Part shown: one piece after another, positions 1 through 17,686 of the stretch
How the letters are laid out: each line of letters opens with the position of its first letter
How positions within the stretch are numbered: the first letter of the stretch is position 1
Source: Eimeria necatrix
Taxonomy: Eukaryota > Apicomplexa > Conoidasida > Eucoccidiorida > Eimeriidae
Direction: 5' to 3'
Assembly (NCBI RefSeq): GCF_000499385.1
Contig: NW_013654565.1
Coordinates: forward strand, 1 to 19,260
Length of the DNA stretch: 19,260 bases
Program-made: the position numbers and the translations under genes
Notes under the pieces: generated by a model
Databases searched by the model: none
What the model was told of the DNA's origin: nothing
What the model saw: the letters and a program-made list of their open reading frames with translations, nothing else

Positions 1-1390
1 TGCCGAAGCTGCCCAATGTTTATGTGTACAGACGCTGCCGCACTGGAATGTGAACAGCGTGTGCGCTGAGAATGGTTTGCGATCGTCGCCCAAGAGACTG
101 CGCGTCACTAAGCTGCACGTTGAAACGTTTCACGCAAGCAACGCGCACGCTGATGCCAATAAGAACAGCAATTGCTTTTTGGCGCAACAGAAGCCCTAGA
201 AGTTTGTCGTTACAGGCGCACATTCGACTTAAATGCCACTAACGCACCTTTGCCTGCATCTGTATGCTTCCTACACAAACCAGTACATGAGCACCGATAC
301 GCCAAGACAGAATGAACTCACCACTCAGCGTAGGTAAGTAACCATCGTTCGGCTTTGCTTGTTCAATGCAAACAGCAGCGAAGCGCGTGTGCCACCGTTT
401 TCCTTTTCAGCGCTTGCCGCTTAGGTTTTGGTGTTGTCACGTATGTCAGGTTGACAGAATTAGCGAGCTAGAATTCTTGTTGCATATCAGGAAACATATA
501 TTCGCGCATAAGCATCTGTGTGCTGGTTGAACACGCGTAACGCAAGGTGTCACGCACATGCTATATTCCTCGTGTAGTCGGCTGATTTCGATGCAGCCTC
601 TGTTTCGTGTGTTTTTTGACTTATCGCAAATTCGAACAAGCATTCAATAAGAATAACGCGTGATAAGCGTAGCCAATATAAATTCAACGGAATTCAAAGT
701 GCTCGTATTAAAACGTTAAGCAGGGATCATGTGGCTTTGAGGAGCCACAAAAACGCCGTCATGCATTTCAATGCAAAAAAATATAGTCCGACTACCAGAT
801 AGAAGCAATTGTATTCGGTTTCTAGCTTGTGCGGACATGTACGGAGACGGGCAAGGATTCTTCCGGGACAACCTGTTGTCCCTAATCTCTCGTGTCAACG
901 CAGAGGTGCAACGTAACTACGGTTTTCAGATGTGAATATGATTCTTTCCACCACGTGGACGTACAAACTTGACATATAGACGGCAACTGGCATCTAGACA
1001 TTTCATGCAAAAATGCGTCTTTTTCGTGGCGCTGCACAATTGTAGCAGATGACTGAGCTCCGCCCGACGTCCTTAATTCTTCGCATAACACGTAGCATAC
1101 CCGCAGCTTCTGACTACGGAGCTAAAGTCATAATCATGAAATGTCGATGATAGGTTGAATGCTATTTTGTCGAGACACAGAGGCAGCACAAGCACTGAAG
1201 GAGCGATTTAAAGGTTGCGCATATCTGTTTGTTGAAACACACGTAATGACGAGAACTCGTACGAAGCATCACAAGCAAGCGCTGGTGCCTAACTTTAGGG
1301 TTCACTAAACAGCAGGCTAACGCCAAGCAGCAAACATTTGACGGCGAATCACCATATTTTGTCTACTCAAACGTTGCGCTCATCATGGCA
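1..1390. other. 3' flank, probably intron, no confident exon
   Basis: I see only the weak CAT site at 558, a poorer GTT site inside the gggacaac/gttgtccc hairpin (868-885), and a GAC triplet near 1070 that follows AAG and precedes GTCGGG. None forms a Gly-X-Y continuation. No coding potential otherwise. Confidence 0.5.
558..560 (-). CDS. Candidate exon CAT, His, 3' side
   Basis: The sequence is gaggaataTAG, CAT, GTGCGT. It meets the strict site pattern but the pyrimidine tract is poor. It lies 833 nt beyond the last Gly, so its slot cannot be fixed. It may be one of the few expected chance hits. Confidence 0.25.
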
Positions 1391-1393
1391 TAC

Positions 1394-1396
1394 TCC
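1394..1396 (-). CDS. One-codon exon GGA, Gly
   Basis: The acceptor is cacttgaccctgCAG and the donor GTATGC. It is the most 3' confident exon in the window. Confidence 0.82.
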
Positions 1397-4300
1397 CTGC
1401 AGGGTCAAGTGTATGCTAGAGGCTGCTCTTTATTTCTCTTGCAAAGTCTACTACTCACTGAGCAGTCCAAAATAAATCCGACATATAGTCGCTCACGAGG
1501 GACGGAAAATGTTCTGGCACGACGATGCCTATGAAATATTTTTAGAGTCCAAGAGCTCAAGCGCCTTTATAGGATACAGATATGTTCATCATTTTTCGAT
1601 GTGTATACGCTTCAAAGTGTCAGCATGTCGGTGGAGGTACTAAATTTGTTTGTTGTGTTCGTGAATATACGTCCACCAAGGACCCAGACCCGCTGCACTG
1701 CCTGATCAAGTAACTGTAACCATGCATTTGAAGTTTCATCATTGGCGACTGTCAAATGAGCTACTTTGTACTCCAAACCGATATTACGAGAATTCAAACT
1801 TCATGTTATTCTTGCGCCCCTATTGAACCCATCACAAAGCGGCGAGTGGCCAACACTGCAAAACACCATCTTCACCAGACATAATCATTTTAAACGCGAT
1901 GTTATAAACAGTATTAAATAGTACAGCATAATGATGTAAAATCCAACTGGCAACAGCATGGCGAGCTCCAGCGCAACAAGAGTCCCAACTGTTTTTGAAA
2001 TGATGCATATCAAAAACCAAATAAGAGAATGGCAAGATTGAAAGTTTCCTCATTGAATGTTTATTGCGTTGTACAAATAAGATAAAGTTCAAACACGCAC
2101 TGGAGAGCGTGTTTTCACGAGCGTCACAAGTGCAGTATGTCACACTCTGCGCGAAGTAACATGGGGGCCGATGCTTCGTCACAAAGCAATCATTCATTTG
2201 GCTAGCATCAGATGATAGCAACACGAAAAAATAAAAACCCAAAATGCAGCAGATCTCCAAAATATCCTCGAGCCTGTTTTTGATACTCAGTCATGAAAGT
2301 CCAACGAAGCCCGGTTTGACGCACTGGCTGCGTCACATGAAAATGTGGAACGGGCCGTCCCCCAGCGTTCACAGCCATGAACATTTAAGCAGGTAGAATC
2401 GTATGAAATGTAGAACTGTTCGTTTTCAAAAACGTTTCCCGTCCTATACTCCTCTTTTTGGAGTAAAATCCAGAAAAATCACTTGGCAGTTCCATATATA
2501 AGAAAATTCACAAGCGCATTCACTTCCGTACTTCGCATTTATAGTCAGCGTTTCACAAAACCGCACGTATTTACTTGATCCATTTACAGCAATCCCAATC
2601 CAGCAGCCTGCACACAGCGATCTGCAACAAAGTCAAGTGTGCAAAGACATTGTCAGTGACTATTTTCTAGTCTCACACTGACAAAACATACCAGCTGGAG
2701 ACAAGCGAGAGAAATATTCTCCTACGATGTTCGCCTTGACCCAAAAGATTGTGGCTCACAGAACACAATCCAGTTTGTTTGTCAACGCATTATCTTTGCC
2801 TCTTCAATCATAATATTTATTAACACGCAGGATTCAACACGTATTAAAAAGCTGTTCTAACACATTGAATCGGGCGACTGTTCTGGCACATCGAATCGGA
2901 CAACCCCGTGAGAGTAGAAAGTGTATTGTCAATTAGACAGTTGCGTTGGCGGTGCGAATCAGCCCCTTTTAAGCACTCCAAGAAAAGCTCTACAAATTCT
3001 TCCTGCAGACGAATGCAAGGCTCCATTATGCGGACAATTGTAGCTTGTGATGTCTAAAAACCAGTCGAACACTTACTCCCTGAAAGATTGTTGCAAATAT
3101 TGTCTCATGCAATGGTATCACCATCGTACAGGAAGCCAAACATCGCGGAGTTCCCCGGTTTCGGATCAGTGTCATTCCACTGACAGCCCTCATTGTGTAT
3201 CGATACCAGCACGCGAGACTTCGACCTTATACCGCGTAGACTCACGGGTATTCATTCGCAGCAGAGAACAAACTCTTTAGCATTGCAAAGACAGAAATAT
3301 TCTCGATGCAAAACGCAGACGCTGCAATCTGCTTAATCAATTCATGGGTACCATGATCACTGTCAATTTGTCAAGAGCTTCATTAGAATACAAATTGTTA
3401 CTGCGAAGCTGTCCATAGGTACTTCCTGCTGCAGGGTTTGCACTCGCCTTCCGCAATAAATTGACAGACAATAACGTAACCACTGTACTACTAACGGACC
3501 TATGAATTTAGGCAGGCTCGATACATCTACAAAACATGTGGGATGGATGCACCTGGTTATGATATTCCGGAGGCTACTTCATAGACTGCTTTGTAATGCG
3601 CGCAGTATGCTTTTACTTCACATAGACTCATGGATATTCGTGACACCATAAAGCACGATTAGCCAAACATAAGCAGCTCGTCATCCTCCTCACCATCTGT
3701 GCCCCAGTTTGTATATTATATTTACCCTGTGTTCAAACACGGCCTGCACAGCACACATGCAACTCCACATACCCCTTTCTAGCAGACGTGTGTTCGCCAC
3801 CATGCACCTGCATGCGTATCAGCGACAAAAAAACCCAAGTAGGTCAAACGGAACGCTGAACACAATGTTTCATCATACGTCGGCGGTAATTCATATCAAA
3901 ACCCACGTCTCATGTACCCAATTTCGTATCTGTGTAGTCCAAGCCAGCTGTCAAATCTCATACCGGCAGTCCCTGCACTTCTACGTACACAACTGATTCG
4001 TGCCTAATATTCACCCACGCCACCAAATCAGCAATGCTATTCTCGTTGTATGTTCCATTAGAGGTGTGTACTGGGCACGGCGCATGCAAACTTGCCAGGC
4101 CATGGTTGCCACGGTTTCAAAGATTCTTTGTATGGCAGTTCGTAGATCCATTTAAAGCCCCTTGGAAACTTACAGGCTGCGATAACCTAATTTAGAACAT
4201 TTTTGAGTCGTTTTGTCACAGAACACGGCGGATCAGCGGATGCTGTCAACTGTAGCAACGCATCTAGAATTCAGTCGATTGACAGCTTAGCAGCTAATTT

Positions 4301-7300
4301 AGCCGTCATTTTTTAAAATTCGGGATGTTTTCCAGTCCTTGCAAAAGCTAACATTTTCCCTGCCTGAACCCAAATTTTCTTACGATACTCAACAATATTC
4401 AATACTGAAGACTATGAAAGAACACCGAAAAGCAGAAAACGTTTTGCACTCCAGCCGTTTGCGCAGGGAACGAATCGAAGCAGAAACACTCTTTGCGAGA
4501 AGACATAGATTCCCGTGCATCCGACAGAAGACAGGCACGCGTAACCTTCTTTCACTCCTCAAAACGAGCTGAGCAGCGTGTGCAACGTAACAACACACCG
4601 ACGCTTACTCCCTAGAAGCAAGCATTATAATGAGACACCCCTGCTTTATATTTTCATTCCAATATCGGCTGCTTCCGCCTAACGGTGCGCACAAATCCAA
4701 TGGATCGCTGCAAACTGAGGCCACTCTGAGACAACATGCTTATCTCGGCATTTCTTCGAAATGCCGAGATACGCATGTTGTCTCTGTGGTTAAAAGGGCT
4801 CCTAGCAGCAGTGAAAGAAGCTACCAGCATCTCCTTAATTCCGGCAACACTATGATGTAGAATGTTCTGTTGCCGCATATGCATCACGCGACCGTATCAT
4901 ATGCTGCATGATTCGAGCAACTGATCCACACTCTTGGAAAGAGCAACATAGAATCAGGAAGACTTCATATATGTGCGCCTAAATACAATTTAGTAAGAGT
5001 ACCTCAAACCGCAGCTTGCTCAAACGCTTCGTGCACCCGGAGATCAGTCTGATGAGTCATAATTTGTTATGACTCATCAGGCTGGTCTCCGGGTGCACAT
5101 GCCCGATTATGAGTATCACGTCATTGCTTGAACAATTTACTCCGCAGCTTAAGCGGACGCGTACCGACTGCATGCCAAACGAAATTGTATGCATGCTGCA
5201 CCAGCACATGCAAATTGTCCTTCAAATATATGCACAAATATCGGCAACCGGACTACTGAATATAGATACATGCGGCACCGAGCAGTCGCTGGAAGTAACA
5301 TCAAAGCAACCTGTCAAAATCGCCATACGCCCCGTCTCAAACTCATGATTTTTAATGTGGACAAGATAATACTCATGTCCAAGGTAAAACAGGAGAATTC
5401 TTACGTGCACAGCCCAGTCCCGCCTAATCTGCGCTCAAGTCACTAATTGAACAGCCATGCTCTTGCACGATATGCAAACACATTTCCTTAATTAGGCAAC
5501 AAGCAAGAAATGTTCACGTTTACGAAGCCCGCAGATCTTCTTCCACATCTTTCCCATAGCTGGCAAAAGAAGCACTTGAAATGCTTACACCCTAAAGGAA
5601 GGCAGATCTGCTAATTTACACTGCCAGTTGCACCACAGACGGCAGTAAGATAACGTGAACACAATGACTCAACTGAAACCTCCTCACAGACCTCGTACTG
5701 ACGTTTTCCCTCAAAAAGGAGTTACTTCAATACTCAGTGGTAAGAATTGTTTTCGAAACTCCAACATGGAGGCTTCATATCTGTCGGTATGATGACAAGA
5801 ACCCTCCATGGAATATAGAAGCCTTTTTGCTCCAACCGTCTTCGCCGAAATTTATGTCACCTTTAAAGCCAACGAAGGCAAGCGCTTGTCGTGTAGTACA
5901 TGATGAACAGACTGCTCGATTTGATTATTCACCAGAACATTTGTCCCGGCAAATCTGTCTACCTGAAACACGCGTTTGCGAAGTGATTATATTATTGCGA
6001 GTGACCGATATTTCTGAAATCTGGAACGCCGGCGTTTGCCTCAAACGGCTAAATGCAGTGTCGGCAGAGTGCCAGAACGTGCAACGCCTTCAAGTGCTGA
6101 AGCAATTTCGCCTTGCTGTCAGGGAAGCATCCTATTAAATACGGCGCGAAAGTGCTTCAGCACTCTATGATGTTGCACTTTGTGGCACTCTATCGACTCT
6201 GCATTTAGTCGATTGACGCAAATGCGGACGTTCTGGATTCCAGCAATATCGAACCCTCGTCAGTCCTCAAATCATAAAAAGTATGCTTCTCAATGACAGC
6301 ACACAGAAAGCAGCACGGCAGCAAATGAATTGCTTAGTAATCGACGACAAAAGCACCACATCAACGGGTTGGTGCAATAATAAGCGCTTCAGATGTGCTG
6401 GCGAGCACGCGACATTGACAAAAATTAACTAAATTGTTTTCCAAAGCTGTATACCATACTTGAACGCACTATATACTCGCAGACGCTGTCACTGCTATTC
6501 AAAACAAAAGATTTGCCACAAATAATATATGGAGTCCTATGCTTTCATGACTTCTTGCATACCCGATTAAGATCGTTGCTACGCACCGGCTGCACCCCAG
6601 GTGGAGAAATCAGCATCTCTCACCAGCCCTTAGATGCTGGCAAGAATTCCTCTTTATATGATGAAAAAAAGGCAACTAAATAGGACAAGCAAGGAAACGT
6701 TGAGGTGACTGCCACGCATGCTTTCAAGAAAAACCACAAAGCTGTTTCGAAAACAATAGCTTCTGTCATGATAGAAACTATGCTGCGCGAAAATGTGTTA
6801 GCTATTTGTAAATCAATATGGTATAATATTTGGCGCAGGCATTTTGGAAAATCCGAGTAATGCAAACTTACTGTCTGTACAAGAATCTCTTGCAATCATC
6901 GCAGTTTTTCCCTCCCACAGAGCGGCACGGTACCTTGTACTGACGAAGCGAGCACAATTCGTGTCCACAACTGATGAGCAGATTCGCAGCAAGCTTACTG
7001 GCCGTCTCTCTTCACGATGCCGCCGGAGCCTTAGAGTCGCAAATAATCAAATCGTCGCAGGAAATCTATCGGATCTACGGAATACCAATTTTAAAAAAAT
7101 ATGTCAATCAGTAATACAGCAAACGTATAGTCCTGCAGCGGTTTGTGCAGCTCATCGATCACACTATTTTGTAAAAACGCACAGACCTCGGCCCGCATGC
7201 GAACAAACGCCTCAGTCCCTTTGATAGCCAAAAATTGAGAGCCTTCACGGCTCGACGAGAGCGCTAGCGGAAATCGCTTATGAAAGTGGACACACTCCCT

Positions 7301-10300
7301 AGCAATTCATGGATTTCCAGCTACGCAGTCGGATCTCCTGCCGTTTTCTTTTCCGACAATCTTGCTCAAACTCAAATCAAAAGCTGGCATTGCGTCAGCA
7401 GATCATGTTGGGGCATGATTTTGCTGTGACAGACTCCGTTGCACGCTCTGCATGCAGGTGTGCATTCAAAAGGTGCATGCGTGCCAAGGAAGACCGGGGC
7501 TTTGTGAAAGGGGTTACAAGCATCTTCATCACTTCCCAAGACTGTACTCCAGAACTTTCCACCGCCTCACTGGTCTTCAATTGCACCTCTCCAAGAGCAA
7601 TCACAGAACCCAAATAACGTATCCAAATCATAATCTGCTAACGTTTAATTCAGGAAGCATGCGCGTGCTAGGAGATTAGCCAGACGCATAACCGACGAGG
7701 CTGCCTGAGAATAGATTGGCTTCAAAGAAACAACGTACGTAAGCGTTTCAGTTTTCTCGCATACATTTTACAAGCAATAATCACCATCCTGGTTGTAAAC
7801 AGCATTTCGGCTTCTCACAACTGTGGACACGCCTTCAATGGTGGGTGAATGCTGTTTCCACATACTGGCTGCACTCCGCACAAAGATGTTGAAGCATCTG
7901 CACAGGTCACGAGACCTAGCTACCACTGCTCTGCACGTATGCTTGCAAGGAAGGAGCTCAAGTGTGCCAAACGCTTCAAAAAGCAGACGATAATAAGCGA
8001 AACTGACAAAAACAACGCAGTTGTGAGTAACAGGTCTTCGCAACTGTGAGCGCTGACACTGTGATGGGCCAACCGCTACTTGAGCGTCTGAATCGGCCTT
8101 TTTATATCCGTTAACAACTCTCCAGTATGGCTGGGTATTAGGAGTGACGCGCGAAAGATGCAGCAAAAGGGCCATTCATTGCTTGCAAAACTCTAAGGGC
8201 CTTTTTCGTAACACAAGTAGTGCTAATAACCAGAGCACTCCCAAAGCCTACAAGCTGTAGCCGGAAAGTATGGGTTGTGCACAAAGCCTTTACCGAAATG
8301 AGGCAAGCCGTTTAAGTATGATGATTCGAAATGCATCTCTTTATAAGAATTAGCCGGCAGTATGGCTACTGAGCGTGTCTCTTTAACTTAGTGCTGCGGC
8401 CTTTATAGTATCCAACAAGCGCTTGTATGTGAGCGCAGCAAGAGCATGAAGCAGTCAGCATTTGTTCTAAAATCCCGAAAGACGAGTGAGTTCCCAACAG
8501 TAAACATTTTACCAGCATCTGCTTTTTGGAGTCCAGTTACCTTACCGGAGCTCAGCTCTTCCAATATTTCAAAATATTCTTCTCACATGTCATTTATGCC
8601 CAAGATATTTAAGCAGTCAAGGATCGCAAGATATCGTAGTTTGCCAGAATATGCACAGAGAGCGGAAGGTGATAAAAAGAAGGTGACCTCTTGCCGGCGC
8701 TTACACCCTGAACGTTCATTACTACAGGATTCATTATTGTGAGGATAGGCGAGAGCTCTTTTTGCCAGAGAGAAATCGCCAAGAGACACTGTAAAGCCAC
8801 CAAGCATTCAGAGAAACAACAGCTCATCAATAGGCAACAAGTCAATTCTCCTATTCTGCTACCAAACCATATACATTAGACCGAGCCCCTGTCCACATAC
8901 AATCTACACTCCGCATAGATATGTCGAAATGCCACTATAGTATTCAAATGAGTAACACTATGTCTCAGCTCGCATGCCGATAATATGTTCACCTGTTTGA
9001 ACTGAACAGGCACTAAAGAGATTCTGCATTGCGTAGTCACACAAATTGCAACGGATGTGCTGGCCCAGTTTTTAATTCATGACGTCTTATCGGGACAAAA
9101 AATCGACAGTTGTGGAGCCAGAAGAAAGCGCTCAGAAATGCCGGGCGCACGACGAGTTATACTGAATCAACAGGCAGTTTCTTGCTTGCTTGCCAATACA
9201 GCTGCGCACTAGGCACAATGCAAGAAACTGCGCTGTAGCAGAGGCAGCCTTTGCTTGCAAGTTACTCCAATCTTATTTCGCATCTAAAGCGCGAATCCTA
9301 TTCCCTTCTTTTTAAAGACGTACATCCTGAAATGAAATTATACGACAATGGTGTGATTATTCTCAATAATGCAGCAGAGTAGTTGATGCTGGGATTTGAG
9401 AGCTATGATTAGGTGCCGAGACAACCGCTTCCCAAAATGACTTCACAATATCGCGTAAGGCTTTAAGAAATGATAACGATGTTTCATTCGCTAGAATCAA
9501 AGCTTCAGCACACGTAGTATACTCAGTCAAAAACGATCGAACCCAACATAGCGTAAATGTGGAGGCGAATATCTTCTGGGTCAACCGTTCGTGCCCGCTA
9601 TCGGTCATGTATGATTGTCAACTGCTGGCTAGCATTTTATTTTGTGCCTTACTCATATTGATGGCCTTTATAGCTCGGCATAAATTGAAGAATATGAGCA
9701 AATCAGCCACACACAGAGCCGCGTACTCCCTGAATAGTTACTCCTCTGAAGTGGTGTAACTGGGAGTCTGGCTTCGACCTAAAGCTCTTAGCGCCTCTAG
9801 AAATTGTCTGAAGAGGAACAGAGCATTGCATCACATCCCGTTCTTTGTCTAACAGGGCGCTTATGATAGCGGTCTTATCATCTACTTACTATACGTACGC
9901 TCAATCCAGAATATTATGTGCGGAGGCGTGACACTGGCTTGCAGCGGACCTGTTGCATATAGCATTAGGCTGGTGAAAAACAAATTCATACAAATTAGAG
10001 TTCTTGGCCATTGCTCATGCAATGTGCAAATGCAAGGGTCACCAGAGTTCTGTGAAGGGCTTAAACAGCCTCTACATTGTTCTTGTAAGACTATGATGTG
10101 GCGTTTTCCTCTGTAGCAGTGTAGCGATAAAATGTCAACGAGCATGTGACATTTAACTCCGTTGGTTGATCTACAAAAACAGCAGCAGACGCATACTTGA
10201 ACTTTTGCAAGCCTAGCTCGAATGCTAATTTGAAAACGGCACCATGCAAAAGGTCCAGGCAAAACAGACATTCGCGATAATATGCAAGACATAGTATAAT

Positions 10301-13300
10301 CTAAAGGCGGCATGCTAGCTTCTCAACTCTTGAAATGATCCTTTCACATCATGTTGAGCCTGTGTTACACATACGTTCTGCACACCGTTCAAAAATTGTG
10401 GCACGTCTTACCAGCACATGCGTGTGTTAGCATCTTGCCAATTATTAGCAAGAGAAACACGGCATTAGAGCCCCGAAGCACAGAACGGAACATGGGGCGC
10501 GTCGACAGACGATTTGTGCCAGATACGGTCCAGCTGCGAAGCCATATCTCATCGAGAAAAGAGAAGTGTCTGATGCCTTAAAGCTAGAAACGCGGCAAAT
10601 CTGCATAGGAAGTTCATTCCCGTCCACTCTGCGTTTGGGATGTCAATTTACTTGACAAATATATCAATGCTCGAACTATTACTAGAAGGACGTGGTTAAT
10701 GAGCCCCAGAAAATGCGTTGCAAAAAGATAGTTCATGAGTACTCTCTATTTCTGTTTCATACACCTGCATTGCGATTCGATGTACTCGAAGAACACACAG
10801 GCTAAAAGAAATTGTTGCTGTTTTTTTGTGGCCGTTTTTTGACACCTCTTGACAACGCTGCGCTACCATCACTTCAATATGACGTTCCACAAGCAGCACG
10901 GTTACTCATTATCTGTCCGAATATCGGTTACGGGTATCTTGAGCGCTATCAGTCTACCCGCGAACGCAGGAATTTCGACAAAGCGCAATTTGTTGCCTAG
11001 CGCCAATTGGAATGGAAAAGATATGGATGCAACAGGAAATATTCTGTTGCACAGTTGTTTGTGTACAGCTATTTATGTACAGCTGTTTATGCAACATGAC
11101 ATTGGCTGTACTAGGGCACATCTCCTTCACGGATAGACACAGCCCGCCGCATTGGTCTTTTAAAACTGGATACGTTTCCTCAAGAAGGGATCACAAGTTT
11201 CCGTAGCGCGGTGTAAAAGCAACAGTATGATCCAGCTAACCACCTTAAGAGGCGTACTCCCTAGGAATTCACAAATTTTGCAGCGAGCGCCCTCTGTGTT
11301 TTCAGCGTGCAACCAGCAAACATCGCTGTCAATGCATCACGAAAAATCCGATGTATGGCATGAAATCGCATCATTTGTTCAGCAGGATGTAAATCCTGCG
11401 CTTTGCACCTGCTGGTGAGTTCTGTAATGCTGGAACTCCTGTGACTGTTCACGTGCCATCCTGGCCTGCAGCAAGTAGCATCCCTCATTATTATGCACGC
11501 AAAAAACACTTGAATCTGAGAATGACAGTCCCCGCTTGAACAACGATCGAGCAATAAGATCGTCAGCTTTTCGCCATCGGCTTCTCCAGCCTTTTATTAC
11601 TTCTGCAGCACTGTGCGGTGGTGCTTCTTGTTGCATCTTATGCGTCGCATACAAGCGAAAAACAATGCGGCAGAAATCAAGGCACAAACGTCAAAGCAAA
11701 AGCTTATCCGCGTTTTTGCATGAGCGCATGATGCACGCATGCGTACAGAAGATTGCCACAATGCATTCGTGCGCAGTTTACTTGGATTTGCCTCCACCAC
11801 CGCTCACATTCTTCATCGAACGTTACAAACACAATTTTGATATCACTGCCCCTCAAAGCAGCGGAAGGATCAGGTGCTTTCACCCGAATGATAGACAAAC
11901 GAAACCAGAGACAGGGTAGTGCAAAATAGTGGATGCTTAAAAGATCCTGGGGCTCACATTGCAAATATTACTCGCAATCGATGTAATTGCTTACAGGCTA
12001 CCAGAGCGTAACTTCAGATAATGCATTATTCTCTTCCAGCATTACATAGCAGTAGCTGATGTGGTCAAAACGAAAGACACATTGCAAACACAACAATTTG
12101 ACGGTTCATCAAAACACACTGACATTTCTTCAAGGTACAAACTGTGCTTCAGACGTGCAACTGGCATTCCAATAGTAAGCCCGAAGTAAATGAAAATATT
12201 CAAAGTTTCGCCGCACACAGGGTTAAAGAGATAGCGGATCAGAAAGCATCCGGCACGCACAAAGATACAGGCATTGCGGGAGAGCTCGAATTTTATCAGG
12301 CATGCTGCTTACCGGCAAAACCATCCGTACAGGCAAAATTCATCAACGCCCACGTTTTGTCGACAAGTGCTACAATATGAGCACGCTAACAATGCATGGA
12401 ACTCACCCCCTAAAACGCCGCCGTCTTCGTCAGAGCAAGCACGTTCAATGAAATTCTGCACGAATTCAGCTAGCTCCGTTGTAACAACAATATGCTGAGA
12501 AGTAAGAGCTGCGAGGTGTCGGGTTTGTTGGCTATAATTGTTTCAGCAATGGCTCTACAAAAACGCCTAGGTCAAATATTATCGCGCACAAGTCAGCTCT
12601 TCGCTCTCAGCATTTGATAAATGCTTGAATGCCCCGAGACAAAGTGCTTTAGAGCAAACTGTTCCACGGCCATAACGATGATATAATCGCACTAGAAGGC
12701 ACATACAGTGAAACATACCTCATATGAGATATTTGGCCTGCTCGTACGAACCTTTCAAGAAAATACCCTTGCGCGCGATAATGGCAGGTCTGGCGTAGAA
12801 CTAGCATCGAAACAGATGCCACGCTTGTGATTCTTCCATGCGAGCGGACCTCCATGCTTATCAAGAAAACGTGCTCCACTAAAAAGCGTGCGATTGAGTT
12901 TCGACGCTTTGCGCCGGATCTAGAAAGAGTTTGAATTTGTAGTCTCATACATCCTGTACGCAACACAGGCATATTAGCTTTCTACAGAGCTCACGTGTGC
13001 TTGCGGTATTTACTTTGCACGCATGTGAGATATAAACGCACTCCCACTGGACGCAACCTTTGCCGAGCAATCTCTGGAACTGGCAGGCTTGATAAAGTGA
13101 CTAGCAGCAGCGGACAGCGTACAGATTTGACGGCCTGAAGCCCAAGAGTGCAGCGCTAGCACGACATGTGATTGCGATGAGGCGGCAAAATGAAGACAAA
13201 CGCCTTTTCCGCTTCTTAGGAGGAACTTCAGAAACTTGGGTTTGCAACAATGACAGTCGATGATTTCAAAGTCACTAAATTCTTCTTTTATCTGGAGCTT

Positions 13301-16300
13301 TCTGGAGCTCGTTGCGGTCAAACACTTACAGGCTGCATGAAACGATTTCTCCTGTTCGTAGCTCCTTTTTTCCACAGCGCAACAAAGCGGCTAAAGCAGA
13401 TAAGGCAAAAGATTTGCCTATTGATGAAGAGCATCACGGCTGCTTTAGCCTTTCTCTTGAGGTGCTGTTGGACTATTCATAAAAATACATCCCCATATGC
13501 TTCAAAAAGATTTTCAACATCTCCCAACAGTTCACTCAACACTGATTAATTTAGGAAGGACCTCACGCAGCGGCACGAAACATCTAGGCCTCTTTGCATC
13601 CGCGTAAAACATATAAATCACAAGGCTACGGCGCTTGCGGGTACCTGTAAAATATGCTGTATATTCTAAGGTGCTCTAATGTTTTTCCTGGCAGTTCAAA
13701 CATCCTTGATTTCGTGAACGCAAAAAAATTTGCGCAGATCGACAGCCTGTTAATGCATACCCCCTGATTTTCGTATTCAAGAGTTGCATTTTCTGTACCA
13801 GACCGGGAAATGCCTGTGTACAACAGTTGAGGAAATTAGCACACAGCCACGGATTGCTTTTTCCGGCCTAACAGGCCACCTTTGAGAACTAGTAGTAAAG
13901 GTTAGCGTGCAAGCTTGTATCCATATTTAAGCACATATCGGATCTTGCCCTACAGCAGGCACACCGGAAGGACAAGCAGTGATATGGCGCATACTGCACC
14001 TGGTGAGGCCTGGGTAACTAAACACACGGGTACTAAAATCCACGTACATGGCACACACCCACAGACATCTGTTGTCCAATTCACAACAAACATTTGACCA
14101 TGGACAACAAAACAGCCCCTTTATGCTTCGTAGTGCACATTGGGTATTAGGCAAATTAGGTATGCGCATACTGGCTCCACGCCAAATAGAAATGTCAACG
14201 CATCTTCGCGGCATATGCGCGATCACTTCTCTGCATCGACACTGATGTGTGCCAAAGGCATCAACGAGGAGCATTTTAAGGAGACAATCGAAAAAGGAAA
14301 AACAAACATAACATTTCCAAATCGAAGCCCTTATCATCTCACCTAGAAGCGACATTACAGGCCTCACGCCCGGTGGAAAGGCACAACAATTGTGAATTAA
14401 ATGCCAATTCGATGTAGCTGCACTGTCACGCAGTTGCGTTAAGGGAAAATGGCAAACTAATAAGGCTTCGTAGCGCGGGAAAGCTCAGAAAATGACGCAA
14501 AAATTTCGTTGAGACCTGCAAAGTTCATTTGGTTTTTGCCATTTCAGGCGAGTTTGCCATTACAAGGTTTCAAAACACACCGGCTGATAAAAAGCAATTC
14601 ATGTTCTTCTTCAGTGTTGCCTGGCAGATGAGACCAGAGGGACGGACGGATGCCTACAACGCGAATCATCAATAAATTCACAAAACGTCCTTTGAGTGCT
14701 ACTGGAGCTTTCTCAAGCACTGTATTTGCCACCGTCGGAAGAAGTAAGGGTGGTGCAATCGTCTAATACGAGGTTCACGCCTGTGCGCGCATCAAAACGC
14801 CACATGGACGATTTCCTTGGCCAGCTGGCGGCGCAAGCCAACAGCCTCACTGCAACAAGATATTGGCGCTTATTTCCAAGTTTGCCGGTGTAGATAATCT
14901 TGCCCAGTTTAATGTGGGAGCTAACACTTGTACGTTTCCATGGCGCTGGCTCAAAATAGGCTCCCTGAATATCCATTGTTTTCAGAGCAAAAGCACTTTG
15001 CTATTCTTATTCACTTATTGCTATTTAATTTATTTTATTTTCATTTTATTAATTATCTCTTTTTGCTATTTGTTCCTCCTTGTAATGTTTTCCCATTTGA
15101 TTATTTCTTTTCAATTCTTCACGAAAATTGCGAATGTCACTGTGAGTTTTTTTGAGAAAAAGCCCAAGGAATTTGATGCATCACAGTTGTGTTCGAGGAT
15201 TCGCGGGAGCTGAAGCTCTCAATTTTTCCTGTGATACATACGTGCCGATCTGTTCAATCTGATTCTGTTCCAAACTTAACACCCACGGGGCTTACTCCCT
15301 GAGTTTATATTGTATTCAAAGCAAAAGCATTTTACTTGTTCATAGCACAAAGTTTGCGAATGGCACCATGAAATATTTGAAAAAGAGCCCAAGGAATTTG
15401 ACGTATCGTGGCCATGTTCAAAAATTTGCCGAAGCCGAAGCTCTTAATTTTTCTTGGGATGCCGACGCGTCAATCTGTTGAGTGTGACGCAGCTCAAATA
15501 AAAGCATCGCCTCGGAAAAAGAATAATGTTTTGGAGCAACATGTAAACCCGCAATATAAGCTGCCCCAGCCGTCTTCTTAAACAGCATGTCAGCAGCAAG
15601 GCAACGAACAATCCGTAAAGAACATTAGCAGCCCGCCTATCACACCTGCAAAGCAATACCCTATACCCTAATACGCCTGCAGCAGATGGCTAAATGTAAA
15701 AATGGCCTAGCAAGAACCCTCATCTGACAGTTATTGTCAGTTTGCGCGAACAAGAGGACCACAAAAGCCTATACACGATATTGGTAAGGCTGCATCAAGT
15801 GCAATCATTGCTAGTACCCATGGCGCTACAGGCTGTTAGGCATTCCAGAATGAAGCCTTGACCACAAACAGCATGCCATCGCCTTTAGCCGTTGTCCCGC
15901 TCCGTGACTTCTCTGTGCTCATGTGATTAGATTTGGATTGACCCACTCGCTTCAATGCACATAAATATTTCAGCATAGAGCACCGACATATGTGTTTCCA
16001 CAGTCATATTCCCGCAAGCACATGAACAGCGTGCACCTTGAAGTAAGCCTAGCACAGCAATAAGCAGAATGCTTAGTCGACAGTCTAGTAAACTATGGCG
16101 AATGCCACATGCCTTATCCCTAGTCTACATGTCTCACAAGAGCAAGAGATGACGTGTTTCATTCCTCAAGCAAAAGCACCCGACGATTCTGAATGCAAAA
16201 CTCATCCCACTAATTCACTTGCTGCCAGCCACTTCAGCGTGCATAACTTCTGTCAATTTGTTAATACACTTTCATGCTGGATTTCTGCAAGGAATCGTTG

Positions 16301-17686
16301 CGTGTTTCTTTTGCACTCGCAAAGATTTCTCGATTAAGGGCTATACCAGGGCCTACAGGCTGTAGAAAATCATTGCTGCACTTGCTGACTCTTCTTTGTC
16401 ATTAGCTCATCAAAGACATCGGTGAACAACACATGAGCAACGCGATTGGAGCACGACAGGTCACAGACACACTTACTGACCATCTTCCCTTGAGTTACAT
16501 TCTAAAAACCAAAATCCCATGGTTCCACTAAGTCTTACGAGAACGGCGAGCCAAGAGCATGTGCCATGCATCGAATGGATCAGGGGAAAACGCAACAAAG
16601 CACGAAATATTTATCATTCGAATGATCTCGTGAACTACTGAAGTTGCAAAAAAGCTTGCACATAGCTACGAAGTTGTCGTTTAGGTAGTCCAGCATCTGA
16701 AGCATTTGGCTAGTTGGAAATTGAGATGTTCTGTCTTTTGGGACGAATTATCTTGTGTAAGTTTACCATACAACTACACTTACTCCCTAAGCAGTTACTC
16801 TTTCAAAGTAATCGCTTGCAACTTGCTGATGATGCGTATCCGAAAAAACCCACTGTAAAAGCATTGTTAAATAATCCAAGAACCGCACGAAGCCCTCTTT
16901 GTTGCATAGCAACCTCGTCCTGGCAATTGTTCTCGAGCGAGAAACGCGATATTTCATGCAAATATCACACTTAAAAGACAGCGCCTCAAGTTGAAACACA
17001 CTACAAATGCCATGCAGATGAATAAAGCTTGGAAGTGCGCGTTCTAGAACTTCCATGACTAAGGTCTGGATACCCGAAGCACTGAGAATCGTAATGTTTT
17101 TCACTAGGATCACCAGAGTCTCCATGTTGCTGTACTGTGGTGAACACGTGACGCGAGCCGATACTGACAGGACGACGTCTTTTGAAGGTTATCGAGGCAT
17201 CGCAGCAAACACAGACACGCAATGCACCCACAGTTTCTCCTGATGCTATCCAAAGCAAATGCTCGATAATGAGCAGAGCACTTTTACTGCAGCCTGCATA
17301 TTATACCGTGTTTGTTTTCACATACTGGCTGCGCTACACACAAACACGTCTTAACACAGCACTCGTGCTCGCGATGAACTCGCTGCCCGCTGCTCACGTG
17401 AAAGCTAAAGTAACACGCAAGTAGACCGCGAGCAACATCGAAGAGAATCCCAAGCAAGCAAAGTTCTTTACCTGATTTAGCGAAATTTAACATGTTCGGA
17501 GCGTGATGACGGCATAAGATATCGATGCAGGACACACCAAATCTAAATTTGAGCAGCGAAATAACACGACTACCATCGTTGGATTTTCCGGCACAACATT
17601 GCATTATCTTCTACACAGAAAGGGGCGCCCGAAAATGCAATCGCTGTTTGCAATGTGACGTTTCCAGTTCCGACACGACACACAGC
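1394..17686 (-). CDS. Collagen-like Gly-X-Y gene made of one-codon exons (partial)
   Basis: About 33 minus-strand sites each have a 3' splice site (YAG), exactly three bases, then a 5' splice site (GTNNGY, mostly GTAAGY, GTATGY, GTACGC or GTGNGT). Read as codons in transcript order, glycine falls in every third slot: 12 Gly codons, with exactly two codons in 8 of the 11 intervals and one in the other 3. The X and Y slots are rich in Pro, with Ala, Asp, Asn, Leu, Ile, Thr, Ser and Met. This is the Gly-X-Y signature of the collagen triple helix, a secreted or extracellular structural domain. All introns are phase 0 and about 190 to 1000 nt long. No signal peptide, propeptide or C-terminal domain lies in the window, so this is an internal helical segment. 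The splice sites and codons are seen; the splicing and the collagen function are inferred. The main alternative, a chance array, is contradicted by the periodicity and by the near-empty plus-strand control. Confidence 0.85.
2325..2327 (-). CDS. One-codon exon CCA, Pro (Y slot)
   Basis: The acceptor is catgtgacgCAG and the donor GTGCGT. It gives Leu-Pro-Gly with its neighbours. The next intron is 928 nt. Confidence 0.78.
2692..2694 (-). CDS. One-codon exon CTG, Leu (X slot)
   Basis: The acceptor is cgcttgtctcCAG and the donor GTATGTTTTG. Both sites are strong. The next intron is 364 nt. Confidence 0.83.
2852..2903. repeat. 26-bp tandem duplication, two copies
   Basis: Units 2852-2877 and 2878-2903 differ at five positions, all transitions. 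They share ctgttct and gaatcgg. Confidence 0.85.
3077..3079 (-). CDS. One-codon exon GGA, Gly
   Basis: The acceptor is caacaatctttCAG and the donor GTAAGTGT. The next intron is 382 nt and contains the 26-bp tandem duplication at 2852-2903. Confidence 0.88.
3694..3696 (-). CDS. One-codon exon ATG, Met (Y slot)
   Basis: The acceptor is aactggggcaCAG and the donor GTGAGG (G at +5, G at +6). It was located by looking in the 1.1-kb gap where the register lacked a codon. Pro-Met-Gly is a typical collagen triplet. The next intron is 614 nt. Confidence 0.7.
4174..4176 (-). CDS. One-codon exon CCT, Pro (X slot)
   Basis: The acceptor is ttaggttatcgCAG and the donor GTAAGTTT, a full consensus. The next intron is 477 nt. 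Confidence 0.85.
4609..4611 (-). CDS. One-codon exon GGA, Gly
   Basis: The acceptor is atgcttgcttcTAG and the donor GTAAGC. Both sites are strong. The next intron is 432 nt. Confidence 0.88.
4728..4784. repeat. 57-nt foldback, near-perfect hairpin
   Basis: Arms of 12 and 14 bp pair with a single mismatch (t4740 with c4772) around a 3-nt loop. The outer arm is gagacaacatgc, the inner arm tatctcggcatttc. It lies in the intron between Ser 5165 and Gly 4609. It could be a small foldback transposon or a small-RNA precursor. Confidence 0.9.
5031..5098. repeat. 68-nt foldback, 31-bp arms
   Basis: The arms at 5031-5061 and 5068-5098 are complementary except at two positions that form G-U pairs in RNA, around a 6-nt loop. 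It is in the same intron as the foldback at 4728. G-U instead of mismatch hints that the structure may matter as RNA (inference). Confidence 0.9.
5165..5167 (-). CDS. One-codon exon TCG, Ser
   Basis: The acceptor is tcgtttggcatgCAG and the donor GTACGC. Only this codon was found between the Gly at 5589 and the Gly at 4609, so either a neighbour is missed or this is a Gly-Ser-Gly interruption. The next intron is 553 nt and holds both strong foldbacks. Confidence 0.72.
5589..5591 (-). CDS. One-codon exon GGT, Gly
   Basis: The acceptor ctgccttcctTTAG has a strong pyrimidine tract. The donor is GTAAGC. The next intron is 421 nt. Confidence 0.87.
6006..6251. repeat. Long imperfect inverted repeat, arms about 107 nt
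   Basis: The left arm 6006-6112 aligns with the reverse complement of 6143-6251 over its whole length, for example agagtgcc, gtgcaac, agtgctgaagca and taaatgcag. By eye the identity is roughly three quarters. The loop is about 30 nt. It lies in the 995-nt intron between Pro 6587 and Gly 5589. Confidence 0.85.
6587..6589 (-). CDS. One-codon exon CCG, Pro (Y slot)
   Basis: The acceptor is ctccacctggggtgCAG and the donor GTGCGT. The next intron is 995 nt, the longest, partly because it holds the long inverted repeat near 6006-6251. Confidence 0.8.
6872..6874 (-). CDS. One-codon exon ACA, Thr (X slot)
   Basis: The acceptor is gagattcttgtaCAG and the donor GTAAGTTT. It gives Thr-Pro-Gly. The next intron is 282 nt. 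Confidence 0.8.
7296..7298 (-). CDS. One-codon exon GGA, Gly
   Basis: The acceptor is catgaattgcTAG and the donor GTGTGT, the only GGA exon without a GTA donor. The next intron is 421 nt. Confidence 0.83.
7866..7868 (-). CDS. One-codon exon CCA, Pro (Y slot)
   Basis: The acceptor is tgtgcggagtgCAG and the donor GTATGTGGA. See 8901 and 17327 for shared flanks. The next intron is 567 nt. Confidence 0.82.
8252..8254 (-). CDS. One-codon exon CTT, Leu (X slot)
   Basis: The acceptor is ctttccggctaCAG and the donor GTAGGC. It gives Leu-Pro-Gly. The next intron is 383 nt. Confidence 0.78.
8705..8707 (-). CDS. One-codon exon GGT, Gly
   Basis: The acceptor is aatgaacgttCAG and the donor GTAAGC. It shares the word TTYAGGGTGTAAGC, allowing C or T, with the GGT exon at 5589. 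The next intron is 450 nt. Confidence 0.85.
8901..8903 (-). CDS. One-codon exon ATT, Ile (Y slot)
   Basis: The acceptor is atgcggagtgTAG and the donor GTATGTGGA. The flanks nearly match those of the CCA exon at 7866 although the codon differs. The next intron is the shortest of the set, 193 nt. Confidence 0.72.
9171..9236. repeat. 66-nt hairpin, about 22-bp arms
   Basis: The core gcagtttcttgc (9174-9185) pairs with gcaagaaactgc (9220-9231), extended by cag/ctg and a mismatched ttgcc/ggcacaa segment. The loop is about 17 nt. It resembles a small-RNA precursor in size and sits in the intron between Asp 9324 and Ile 8901. Confidence 0.75.
9324..9326 (-). CDS. One-codon exon GAT, Asp (X slot)
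   Basis: The acceptor ataatttcatttCAG is excellent. The donor is GTACGT. The next intron is 420 nt and contains the hairpin at 9171-9236. Confidence 0.82.
9727..9729 (-). CDS. One-codon exon GGA, Gly
   Basis: The acceptor agtaactattCAG includes a branch-like gtaac. The donor is GTACGC. The next intron is 400 nt. Confidence 0.85.
10375..10377 (-). CDS. One-codon exon AAC, Asn (Y slot)
   Basis: The acceptor is tgaacggtgtgCAG and the donor GTATGTG. It gives Pro-Asn-Gly. The next intron is 645 nt. Confidence 0.8.
10799..10801 (-). CDS. One-codon exon CCT, Pro (X slot)
   Basis: The acceptor caatttctttTAG has a very good pyrimidine tract. The donor is GTGTGT. It was found only after the register predicted a codon between the Gly at 11258 and the Asn at 10375. 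The next intron is 421 nt. Confidence 0.85.
11028..11090. repeat. Small hairpin next to a 14-bp tandem repeat
   Basis: tgcaacag...ctgttgca (11028-11051) folds into a roughly 10-bp stem. Then gtacagctatttat and gtacagctgtttat (11063-11076 and 11077-11090) repeat with one change. Both are within the intron between Gly 11258 and Pro 10799. Confidence 0.7.
11258..11260 (-). CDS. One-codon exon GGA, Gly
   Basis: The acceptor is gtgaattccTAG and the donor GTACGC. Its flank resembles the GGA exon at 7296 (gaattcc or gaattgc before TAG). The next intron is 456 nt and holds the 14-bp tandem repeat at 11063-11090. Confidence 0.83.
11409..11411 (-). CDS. Candidate exon CAG, Gln, for the missing Y slot
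   Basis: The sequence is agaactcacCAG, CAG, GTGCAA. The acceptor is good; the donor lacks G at +5. Pro-Gln-Gly is a common collagen triplet. It leaves introns of 583 and 148 nt. Confidence 0.25.
11808..11810 (-). CDS. Candidate exon AAT, Asn, for the missing Y slot
   Basis: The sequence is cgttcgatgAAG, AAT, GTGAGC. The donor is strong but the acceptor is AAG with a poor pyrimidine tract. It competes with CAG at 11409. Confidence 0.25.
11995..11997 (-). CDS. One-codon exon CCT, Pro (X slot)
   Basis: The acceptor is gttacgctctggTAG and the donor GTAAGC. The next confident exon is 734 nt away, so the Y codon of this triplet is unassigned (see 11808 and 11409). Confidence 0.82.
12407..12409 (-). 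CDS. One-codon exon GGG, Gly
   Basis: The acceptor is ggcggcgtttTAG and the donor GTGAGTTCC, a full consensus. The next intron is 409 nt. Confidence 0.85.
12951..12953 (-). CDS. One-codon exon GAT, Asp (Y slot)
   Basis: The acceptor is gttgcgtaCAG and the donor GTATGA (G at +5, A at +6). It completes Pro-Asp-Gly. The next intron is 541 nt. Confidence 0.75.
13330..13332 (-). CDS. One-codon exon CCT, Pro (X slot)
   Basis: The acceptor is tcgtttcatgCAG and the donor GTAAGTGT, a full consensus. The next intron is 376 nt. Confidence 0.85.
13389..13450. repeat. Three-stem (cruciform-like) structure
   Basis: An outer 11-bp perfect stem (13389-13399 with 13440-13450) encloses two smaller hairpins: aggcaaa/tttgcct (13403-13419) and tgatg/catca (13422-13436). 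It is intronic. Confidence 0.65.
13761..13763 (-). CDS. One-codon exon GGG, Gly
   Basis: The acceptor is atacgaaaatCAG and the donor GTATGC. It is a Gly codon different from GGA, so the signal is not merely copies of one word. The next intron is 428 nt and contains the three-stem structure at 13389-13450. Confidence 0.85.
14581..14583 (-). CDS. One-codon exon CCG, Pro (Y slot)
   Basis: The acceptor ttgctttttatCAG has an excellent pyrimidine tract. The donor is GTGTGTTTTG. The next intron is 817 nt, one of the long ones, and contains an 11-bp inverted repeat (14448-14458 with 14551-14561). Confidence 0.85.
14843..14845 (-). CDS. Candidate exon GCT, Ala, for the missing X slot
   Basis: The sequence is ttgttgcagtGAG, GCT, GTTGGC. 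The pyrimidine tract is fair and the donor has G at +5, but the acceptor is GAG rather than YAG. Ala would give a normal Ala-Pro-Gly triplet with 14581 and 13761. Weak candidate. Confidence 0.25.
14962..14964 (-). pseudogene. Duplicated GGA exon without GT donor
   Basis: The acceptor and codon, gatattCAG then GGA, copy those at 15296, but the following bases are GCCTAT instead of GTAAGC. It looks like a duplicated acceptor plus exon whose donor lay outside the duplication. It sits at the expected distance for the missing X codon (331 and 378 nt to its neighbours), so use with a GC donor cannot be excluded. A Gly in X would be unusual. Confidence 0.4.
15296..15298 (-). CDS. One-codon exon GGA, Gly
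   Basis: The acceptor is tataaactCAG and the donor GTAAGC. The intron upstream of it on the minus strand is the copy-B side of a local duplication (15291-15484), whose other copy carries a donorless GGA at 14962. The next confident exon is 712 nt away, enough room for one unassigned X codon. Confidence 0.85.
15830..15832 (-). CDS. One-codon exon CCT, Pro (Y slot)
   Basis: The acceptor aatgcctaaCAG includes a branch-like cctaac. The donor GTAGCG lacks G at +5 and is the weakest among the in-register exons. The codon and slot fit Pro-Pro-Gly. The next intron is 531 nt. Confidence 0.65.
16357..16359 (-). CDS. One-codon exon CCT, Pro (X slot)
   Basis: The acceptor gattttctaCAG has a clear pyrimidine tract. 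The donor GTAGGC keeps G at +5. The next intron is 524 nt. Confidence 0.8.
16601..16631. repeat. Palindrome with flanking pairs
   Basis: atcattcgaatgat (16613-16626) is a perfect 14-bp palindrome, flanked by cacga (16601-16605) and tcgtg (16627-16631). Confidence 0.6.
16784..16786 (-). CDS. One-codon exon GGA, Gly
   Basis: The acceptor is gtaactgctTAG, with a possible branch-point word gtaac just upstream. The donor is the consensus GTAAGT. It is one of eight exons with the word YAGGGAGT. The next intron is 424 nt and contains the rejected TAA decoy at 16473. Confidence 0.88.
17327..17329 (-). CDS. One-codon exon CCA, Pro (Y slot)
   Basis: The acceptor is tgtgtagcgCAG and the donor GTATGT, continuing GTATGTGAAAAC. 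The flanks resemble those of the CCA exon at 7866, with the 14 bases GCAGCCAGTATGTG identical. Pro in a Y slot is a potential hydroxyproline site. The next intron is 540 nt. Confidence 0.8.
17684..17686 (-). CDS. One-codon exon GCT, Ala (X slot)
   Basis: The acceptor is gaatcattgCAG and the donor GTGTGT. It is the most 5' exon with good sites at both ends. Ala is common in collagen X positions. The next intron is 354 nt. Confidence 0.7.

Follow-up and report, generated by a model that had tools for sequence, protein, structure and literature searches.

Arrays of predicted single-codon exons, some of them collagen-like, in an Eimeria genome

Can a gene be divided so finely that every codon forms an exon of its own? 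This question is raised by a contig of 19,260 nt (C924, analysed here over its whole length and referred to as the window) from a genome of 44.0 Mb in 1,148 contigs, on the minus strand of which a preliminary description had counted about 33 places where a YAG acceptor, exactly three bases and a 5′ splice site follow one another. We scanned all 19,260 nt for the pattern [CT]AG-N3-GT[AG]NG (YAG-NNN-GTRNG), hereafter a strict site, and found 35 on the minus strand and 3 on the plus strand. When the three-base spacer was exchanged for any other length from 0 to 200, the minus strand gave a mean of only 4.74 matches and a maximum of 13, and 500 second-order Markov sequences gave a mean of 4.9 strict sites and a maximum of 12. 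The sites are therefore real in the sense originally intended.

The codons enclosed by these sites are ordered. GGN makes up 12 of the 35, as compared to a GG at 4.3% of positions, and it occupies only 1 of the 69 minus-strand AG-N3-GT sites that lie outside the strict set. Of the 11 gaps between successive GGN sites, 8 hold two other sites and 3 hold one, and shuffling of the codon order reached at least eight two-site intervals in just 8 of 200,000 trials. Together, the spacer, Markov and order controls rule out pure chance as the source of the sites. Distances from glycine to the next exon (X) are 385-459 nt, plus one of 715, those from X to Y are 285-480 nt, and those from Y to glycine are 196-998 nt, mostly 411-651, in agreement with the spacing first described. 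For each skew the minus strand is rich in G+T in 18 of 19 one-kilobase bins, which is what a single transcription unit might produce. An Rfam search of the window gave no match, and no phage records were found with it.

Two further contigs, C873 (20,922 nt) and C920 (20,278 nt), are kin of the window across nearly their full length, with long blocks that are 74-81% and 63-74% identical to it, respectively. Their strict sites number 33 and 39, with maxima of 10 and 13 for the remaining spacers from 0 to 30, and when the three contigs are aligned together their predicted exons stand in register. The codons of the window, taken in order with the help of this alignment (Table 1), read A-P-G, P-R-G, P-P-G, P-D-G, P-(?)-G, P-N-G, D-I-G, L-P-G, T-P-G, S-(S?)-G, P-M-G and L-P-G. 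Glycine thus ends 12 successive Gly-X-Y triplets, two of whose Y codons are uncertain. The Gly-X-Y repeats proposed earlier are in this way borne out by the glycine period, with a correction in triplet 2, which had been given as PPG and is PRG by way of the CGA at 15947-15949; the CCT at 15830-15832, a candidate for the same Y position, is without aligned splice sites in both other copies.

Table 1. Predicted single-codon exons of the window, in minus-strand order from high to low coordinates
Feature	Codon	Position	Strand	Remarks
Array of predicted single-codon exons, collagen-like		558..17686	-	leaves contig at low end
X1 Ala	GCT	17684..17686	-	strict site; GTC in C873, CCT in C920
Y1 Pro	CCA	17326..17328	-	strict site; Pro in 3/3 copies
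Gly1	GGA	16784..16786	-	strict site; Gly in 3/3 copies
X2 Pro	CCT	16357..16359	-	strict site; Pro in 3/3 copies
Y2 Arg	CGA	15947..15949	-	AAG acceptor; CGA/AGA/CGA in the three paralogues
Gly2	GGA	15296..15298	-	strict site
X3 Pro	CCG	14581..14583	-	strict site
Y3 Pro	CCA	14172..14174	-	GAG acceptor here; CAG in both paralogues
Gly3	GGG	13761..13763	-	strict site; GGA, GGC in paralogues
X4 Pro	CCT	13330..13332	-	strict site
Y4 Asp	GAT	12951..12953	-	strict site; Asp in 3/3 copies
Gly4	GGG	12407..12409	-	strict site; GGG, GGA in paralogues
X5 Pro	CCT	11995..11997	-	strict site
Y5, weak candidate	AAT	11808..11810	-	tentative; sole local candidate; paralogue Y5 (C873 AAA, C920 AGA) aligns to a gap here
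Gly5	GGA	11258..11260	-	strict site
X6 Pro	CCT	10799..10801	-	strict site
Y6 Asn	AAC	10375..10377	-	strict site; GAT in both paralogues
Gly6	GGA	9727..9729	-	strict site
X7 Asp	GAT	9324..9326	-	strict site; TAT, CGT in paralogues
Y7 Ile	ATT	8901..8903	-	strict site; CCT in both paralogues
Gly7	GGT	8705..8707	-	strict site; GGA in both paralogues
X8 Leu	CTT	8252..8254	-	strict site; CCT in both paralogues
Y8 Pro	CCA	7866..7868	-	strict site
Gly8	GGA	7296..7298	-	strict site
X9 Thr	ACA	6872..6874	-	strict site; CCC, CCT in paralogues
Y9 Pro	CCG	6587..6589	-	strict site
Gly9	GGT	5589..5591	-	strict site
X10 Ser	TCG	5165..5167	-	strict site; GTG in both paralogues
Y10 Ser	AGT	4930..4932	-	tentative; weak donor, AAG acceptor; AGT, GGT in paralogues
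Gly10	GGA	4609..4611	-	strict site
X11 Pro	CCT	4174..4176	-	strict site
Y11 Met	ATG	3694..3696	-	strict site; AGG in both paralogues
Gly11	GGA	3077..3079	-	strict site
X12 Leu	CTG	2692..2694	-	strict site; GTA, GTG in paralogues
Y12 Pro	CCA	2325..2327	-	strict site
Gly12	GGA	1394..1396	-	strict site
X13	TTT	965..967	-	tentative; CCT in C920, splice sites lost in C873
Y13	CAT	558..560	-	tentative; strict site; CCA in C920, not retained in C873

The Gly-X-Y chain from 17686 to 1394 takes in 32 of the 35 strict sites. The other three are the CAT at 558-560, which may extend the chain, and the TGT at 18635-18637 and TAA at 16473-16475, both of which we take to be chance occurrences; the donor of the latter is missing in C873, though present in C920. 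Two more candidates, a GCC at 3741-3743 and an AAC at 6230-6232, were dropped from the chain; both are absent in C920. The preliminary description proposed looking for a continuation on both sides. Toward coordinate 1 the array perhaps continues as F-H through the tentative codons at 965-967 and 558-560 and then leaves the contig, while before 17686 the three-copy alignment has no conserved glycine at the expected place.

The intervening DNA has features of its own. A palindrome with 114-nt arms that are 79% complementary lies at 5998-6259, and since a genome search with it returned only the window copy and C873 (86%) it is a local intron hairpin rather than a dispersed element. The AAC at 6230-6232, which has an acceptor and a weak donor in the window and in C873, is located inside this palindrome; it may be an additional exon or one in decay, and its inclusion would disturb the Gly-X-Y register. 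Smaller hairpins occupy the introns around triplet 10, at 5031-5098 (32-nt arms, 94%) and 4728-4784 (27-nt arms, 96% complementary). Near the Gly2 exon, one intron includes two tandem 123-nt copies that are 72% alike (15151-15498), and an AT-rich stretch of 121 nt at 15001-15121 is 93% identical to contig C318. Because the C873 match starts only after this AT-rich stretch, it is probably an insertion in the window copy.

We counted identities at 33 slots (12 Gly, 12 X and 9 Y), which were placed on the window copy with the alignment already in view. Six other candidate columns, several of them lost in one or both paralogues, lie outside this count, the left-out candidates including minus-strand positions 13029, 15518, 18294 and 18701; the Y codons of triplets 5 and 10 are tentative, and the arginine slot of triplet 2, kept in all three copies, was recognised after the count was made. 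Over the 33 slots and three copies, the AG and the GT are each identical in 198 of 198 pairwise comparisons and the G at donor position +5 in 97 of 99, as against 72.7% (28,564/39,311) for deep intron sequence. Glycine codons agree in 36/36, 36/36 and 29/36 comparisons at their first, second and third bases, such that GG is found in all three copies at 12 of 12 columns while the third base is free to change (for example GGG/GGA/GGC and GGT/GGA/GGA). Retention of AG, GT and GG alongside a drifting third base reflects selection on a protein. The X codons (25/36, 26/36 and 27/36) are not above the intron level, and the Y codons score 23/27, 23/27 and 19/27; read from the DNA, their predicted substitutions are those that collagen tolerates at X and Y, with glycine fixed.

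These counts bear on whether the arrays might be relics of once-spliced genes, now decaying and unexpressed. The window copy does have one missing Y exon (Y5), one doubtful one (Y10) and a ragged 5′ end to its array, as one might expect of a relic, but at the 33 slots counted its acceptors, donors and glycine codons are intact, as they are in the two other copies, although introns diverge by about 27% among the three. Closer paralogues likewise keep their sites: in the pairs of loci C224/C337 and C213/C272, which are 92-93% identical, all strict sites of the first member are kept in the second, and the codon changes are of the kind Asp/Glu, Leu/Pro and CCC/CCT. We accordingly consider decay unlikely, and a maintained gene the better reading.

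Is the predicted product a collagen? The Pfam collagen triple-helix repeat (PF01391) has glycine at every third residue, and this is seen in the 12 triplets of the window as well as in 29 of 41 glycine intervals pooled over C924, C873, C920 and C213, a figure counted on strict sites alone and matched by 0 of 20,000 shuffles; the pooled set also includes a single interval of 3 and a single one of 4. Proline-rich X and Y positions are present too, with 48 proline and 45 glycine codons among the 129 strict sites of the four collagen contigs. Stop codons at these 129 sites amount to two TAA, the one in the window being common to C920. However, a 35-residue peptide in which triplet 2 was uncorrected scored 21.1 bits against a cut-off of 27.2, and we therefore use the term collagen-like rather than assign the peptide to the family. 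By DNA sequence the predicted exons are well within the size of microexons (up to about 30 nt between consensus splice sites), and the borders are those of U2-type introns, with GT-AG, +5 G and a YAG acceptor recurring across three paralogues. The donors conform to GTRNGY, in which GT, the R at +3 and the +5 G are fixed by the search pattern itself, and the YAG acceptors have a slight excess of pyrimidines (0.54, as compared to 0.50 at spacer-4/5 controls). The aggregate supports a coding sequence of collagen type in which every predicted exon is a single codon, and we hold with high confidence that the minus strand of the window carries a collagen-like gene of predicted 3-nt exons that are likely joined one by one by the ordinary spliceosome.

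The preliminary description dealt with this one collagen-like gene. That proposal passes the spacer, glycine and paralogue tests and is nonetheless too narrow in one respect, as the same architecture is found in stretches that are not collagen-like. A genome search with YAGGGAGTAAGY gave 60 matches, versus 7 for the reversed pattern; we examined loci of 3 kb around 30 of the 60, and 23 of these 30 carry at least 3 more strict sites in the same orientation, against an average of 0.83 for other spacers. Three stretches whose sites plainly read as protein other than collagen are C200:233001-258453 (25 kb), with 107 strict sites versus about 8 for other spacers, the minus strand of C561:12001-22000 (10 kb), with 51 versus 2.4, and C102:9001-19000 (10 kb), with 43. 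Smaller numbers were recorded in C637:16001-26000 (22 versus 2.9), C157:1-6000 (11 versus 0.7) and C96:33001-38395, which is mostly N (4 versus 0.3). Predicted exons in the non-collagen stretches lie some 140-160 nt apart.

Taken together, eight array stretches (130,048 nt) contain 352 matches with the three-base spacer, whereas other spacers from 0 to 60 give a mean of 35.9 and a maximum of 51. Spacers of 6, 9 and 12 are not raised (34, 36 and 26), and the antisense strand has 19 matches with spacer 3. Across the genome the form CAG-N3-GTAAGC occurs 563 times, as compared to 282 for a four-base and 319 for a six-base spacer; since this form accounts for 32 of the 352 strict sites of the array stretches, its excess of about 260 translates into a crude figure of about 2,900 strict sites genome-wide. 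At C66:30184-30246, CAGCTAGTAAGC recurs every 17 nt, and this tandem repeat inflates both the spacer-3 and the spacer-6 counts. The predicted non-collagen peptides found no Pfam family, no homologue in a protein search and, among solved structures, a best E value of 0.74; since they are incomplete and have some uncertain residues, these negatives are weak evidence. Searches for paralogues of the C200 and C561 stretches gave only self-matches, and no gene start or end was seen in the array stretches examined.

Stop codons are absent from all 223 strict codons of the four non-collagen stretches in C200, C102, C561 and C637, as compared to 6 of 178 antisense AG-N3-GT sites there. This count weighs on another explanation, by which the transcript would be non-coding, its sites would serve regulation or recursive splicing, and their reading as codons would be a product of chance. 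Paired acceptors and donors do look like ratchet points, but the glycine period, the drift at the third base of glycine codons and the missing stops refute a non-coding role unless the glycine period is itself an unknown RNA signal, and we give it next to no credence in comparison with a protein-coding array.

To what organism do the arrays belong? Actin gave 21 matches in six frames, the best of them a gene on C80 in which a single GT-AG intron separates two long exons; the nearest entries are PDB 8trm followed by several named Actin-1, which we take to be those of Toxoplasma and Plasmodium. On C650, an actin-related open reading frame is 95% identical (558/588) to ARP4a of Eimeria tenella, a parasite of chickens, as compared to 47-49% for four other named Eimeria and 51% for Cyclospora, with three further hits unnamed. 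The array-bearing genome is thus likely that of a close sister of E. tenella, and probably of Eimeria necatrix, its sister species. Ordinary loci do not share the signal: C318:70001-80000 and several others have no excess of spacer 3.

Nonetheless, the array contigs have a GC content of 45% and many are short (11-22 kb), while Eimeria-type loci of the same assembly range from 51 to 64%, and one could suppose that they come from another organism in the assembly, in which case the architecture would be real and its owner not Eimeria. Three observations speak for the parasite itself. The 258-kb contig C200 unites an array at its end with Eimeria-typical CAG-repeat sites near 150-154 kb, the 121-nt stretch in the window that resembles C318 (93%) ties it to a contig whose frames are full of the homopolymer runs of Eimeria, and in Eimeria falciformis introns have 47.1% GC and exons 55.9% (PMC4287421). 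The CAG repeats of C200 and the C318 match support the array contigs as part of the Eimeria genome, and we think foreign ownership rather improbable. For E. tenella the genome report (PMC8515493) gives exons averaging 350 nt and a mean of 6.34 of them in each gene, and the parts consulted of papers on E. falciformis, E. tenella and E. necatrix speak of ordinary exon numbers.

How might such exons be joined? The AG acceptor and GT donor around each codon predict a 3-nt exon that would be spliced in RNA. Alternatively, the spacers might be excised from DNA in a programmed manner at some stage, the GT-AG borders being coincidental. An exact 3-nt residue between the borders is indeed unusual for spliceosomal exons; the borders, however, follow the splice pattern (YAG, GTRNGY, +5 G in 97 of 99), actin in this genome is interrupted by a normal GT-AG intron, and we know of no DNA excision of this kind in Apicomplexa. 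Excision from DNA therefore seems very improbable, and we return to splicing. On a 3-nt exon, U2AF at the acceptor and U1 at the donor could hardly bind together, and exon definition is for that reason unlikely. More plausibly, the upstream intron would be removed first, adding one codon and bringing the GTRNGY donor that follows it to the 3′ end of the growing message, so that the whole would be assembled by a codon-by-codon ratchet from the 5′ end, akin to recursive splicing but leaving one codon behind at each step. A U12-type spliceosome is not expected here, as it appears to be absent from Apicomplexa (PMC6381282).

The layout of the window also hints at how the arrays grew. Flanks of the glycine, X and Y exons resemble those of their own class, a likeness reached in 1 of 2,000 label shuffles upstream and 0 of 2,000 downstream, and intron lengths go by exon class as well (Gly-X, X-Y, Y-Gly). 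Both features fit duplication of a three-exon Gly-X-Y block, and the collagen-like gene probably grew by duplicating such a block of about 1.4 kb. In C200, growth may have proceeded by tandem copies of a single exon-intron unit, as near 246.3-246.9 kb and 250.6-250.9 kb neighbouring units look, by eye, as if one or two of them had been copied in tandem. Within C200:243001-253000, local positions 7540-8000 hold a nearly exact tandem repeat of some 247 nt that includes the predicted exons GAA and AGA; either a unit was duplicated recently or the assembly is at fault. C924, C873 and C920 end at nearly homologous places, and a block of about 375-410 nt is repeated twice at the 5′ end of C873, so a tandem repeat there may be where the assembly breaks off.

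With every exon a complete codon, exon gain, loss or skipping would never break the frame. On balance, we consider it quite probable that this Eimeria genome contains a class of genes, collagen-like ones and others, with up to about 100 or more consecutive one-codon exons and perhaps thousands in all, which would be spliced codon by codon in a ratchet, allow evolution and alternative splicing to add, drop or swap single residues in frame, and escape both standard annotation and the alignment of reads. A spliced aligner requires an anchor of more than 3 nt, and about 33 such exons would fall within one 100-nt read. If the codons are joined, the spliceosome would build messages from dozens to more than 100 consecutive 3-nt exons, which bears on the minimum size of an exon and on the need for exon definition. 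A gene class would then be missing from the annotation of well-studied livestock parasites, unseen by gene-finding, and these arrays would offer a natural system for studying how introns arise when exon-intron units are duplicated, as well as protein evolution by single residues.

Among the titles listed by literature searches on arrays of 3-nt exons, on microexons in Eimeria and on collagen in Apicomplexa, none describes such genes, and the library searched had no work joining Eimeria with microexons, or Apicomplexa with collagen-like and Gly-X-Y. The nearest known systems each share part of the architecture. Animal collagen genes have in common with the window a proline-rich Gly-X-Y repeat and exon borders that fall between codons, but in vertebrate fibrillar collagens the exons are multiples of 9 nt, often 54, while here an apicomplexan has one codon per predicted exon. 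In schistosome micro-exon genes (MEGs; see PMC4671649) the exons vary in length; 6-36 nt is the usual range. Like the Eimeria arrays, these genes string together short whole-codon exons that can be skipped in frame, but they vary in exon length, whereas in Eimeria only length 3 is raised and 6, 9 and 12 are not; moreover, they belong to a different phylum, with no sequence relation shown to the Eimeria arrays. Recursive-splicing ratchet points resemble our sites in having adjacent acceptors and donors, likely used in turn (see PMC8605326 and PMC6224609), but at classical ratchet points YAG abuts GT and nothing is left in the mRNA, whereas here one codon lies between them, and spacer 0 occurs only 17 times in the eight array stretches against a mean of 36. 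Finally, isolated 3-nt microexons, which the preliminary description had named as rare isolated cases, are reported in Drosophila homothorax (PMC7392893) and RPS24 (PMC12686416), and like the exons predicted here have exactly 3 nt between ordinary splice sites. Those, however, are singles among long exons, whereas in the window 34 are assigned consecutively in one gene in which no longer exon was recognised, and another array, in C200, has 107 strict sites in 25 kb. Single 3-nt exons are known, and genes of consecutive single-codon exons, as predicted here, have no counterpart among the titles listed.
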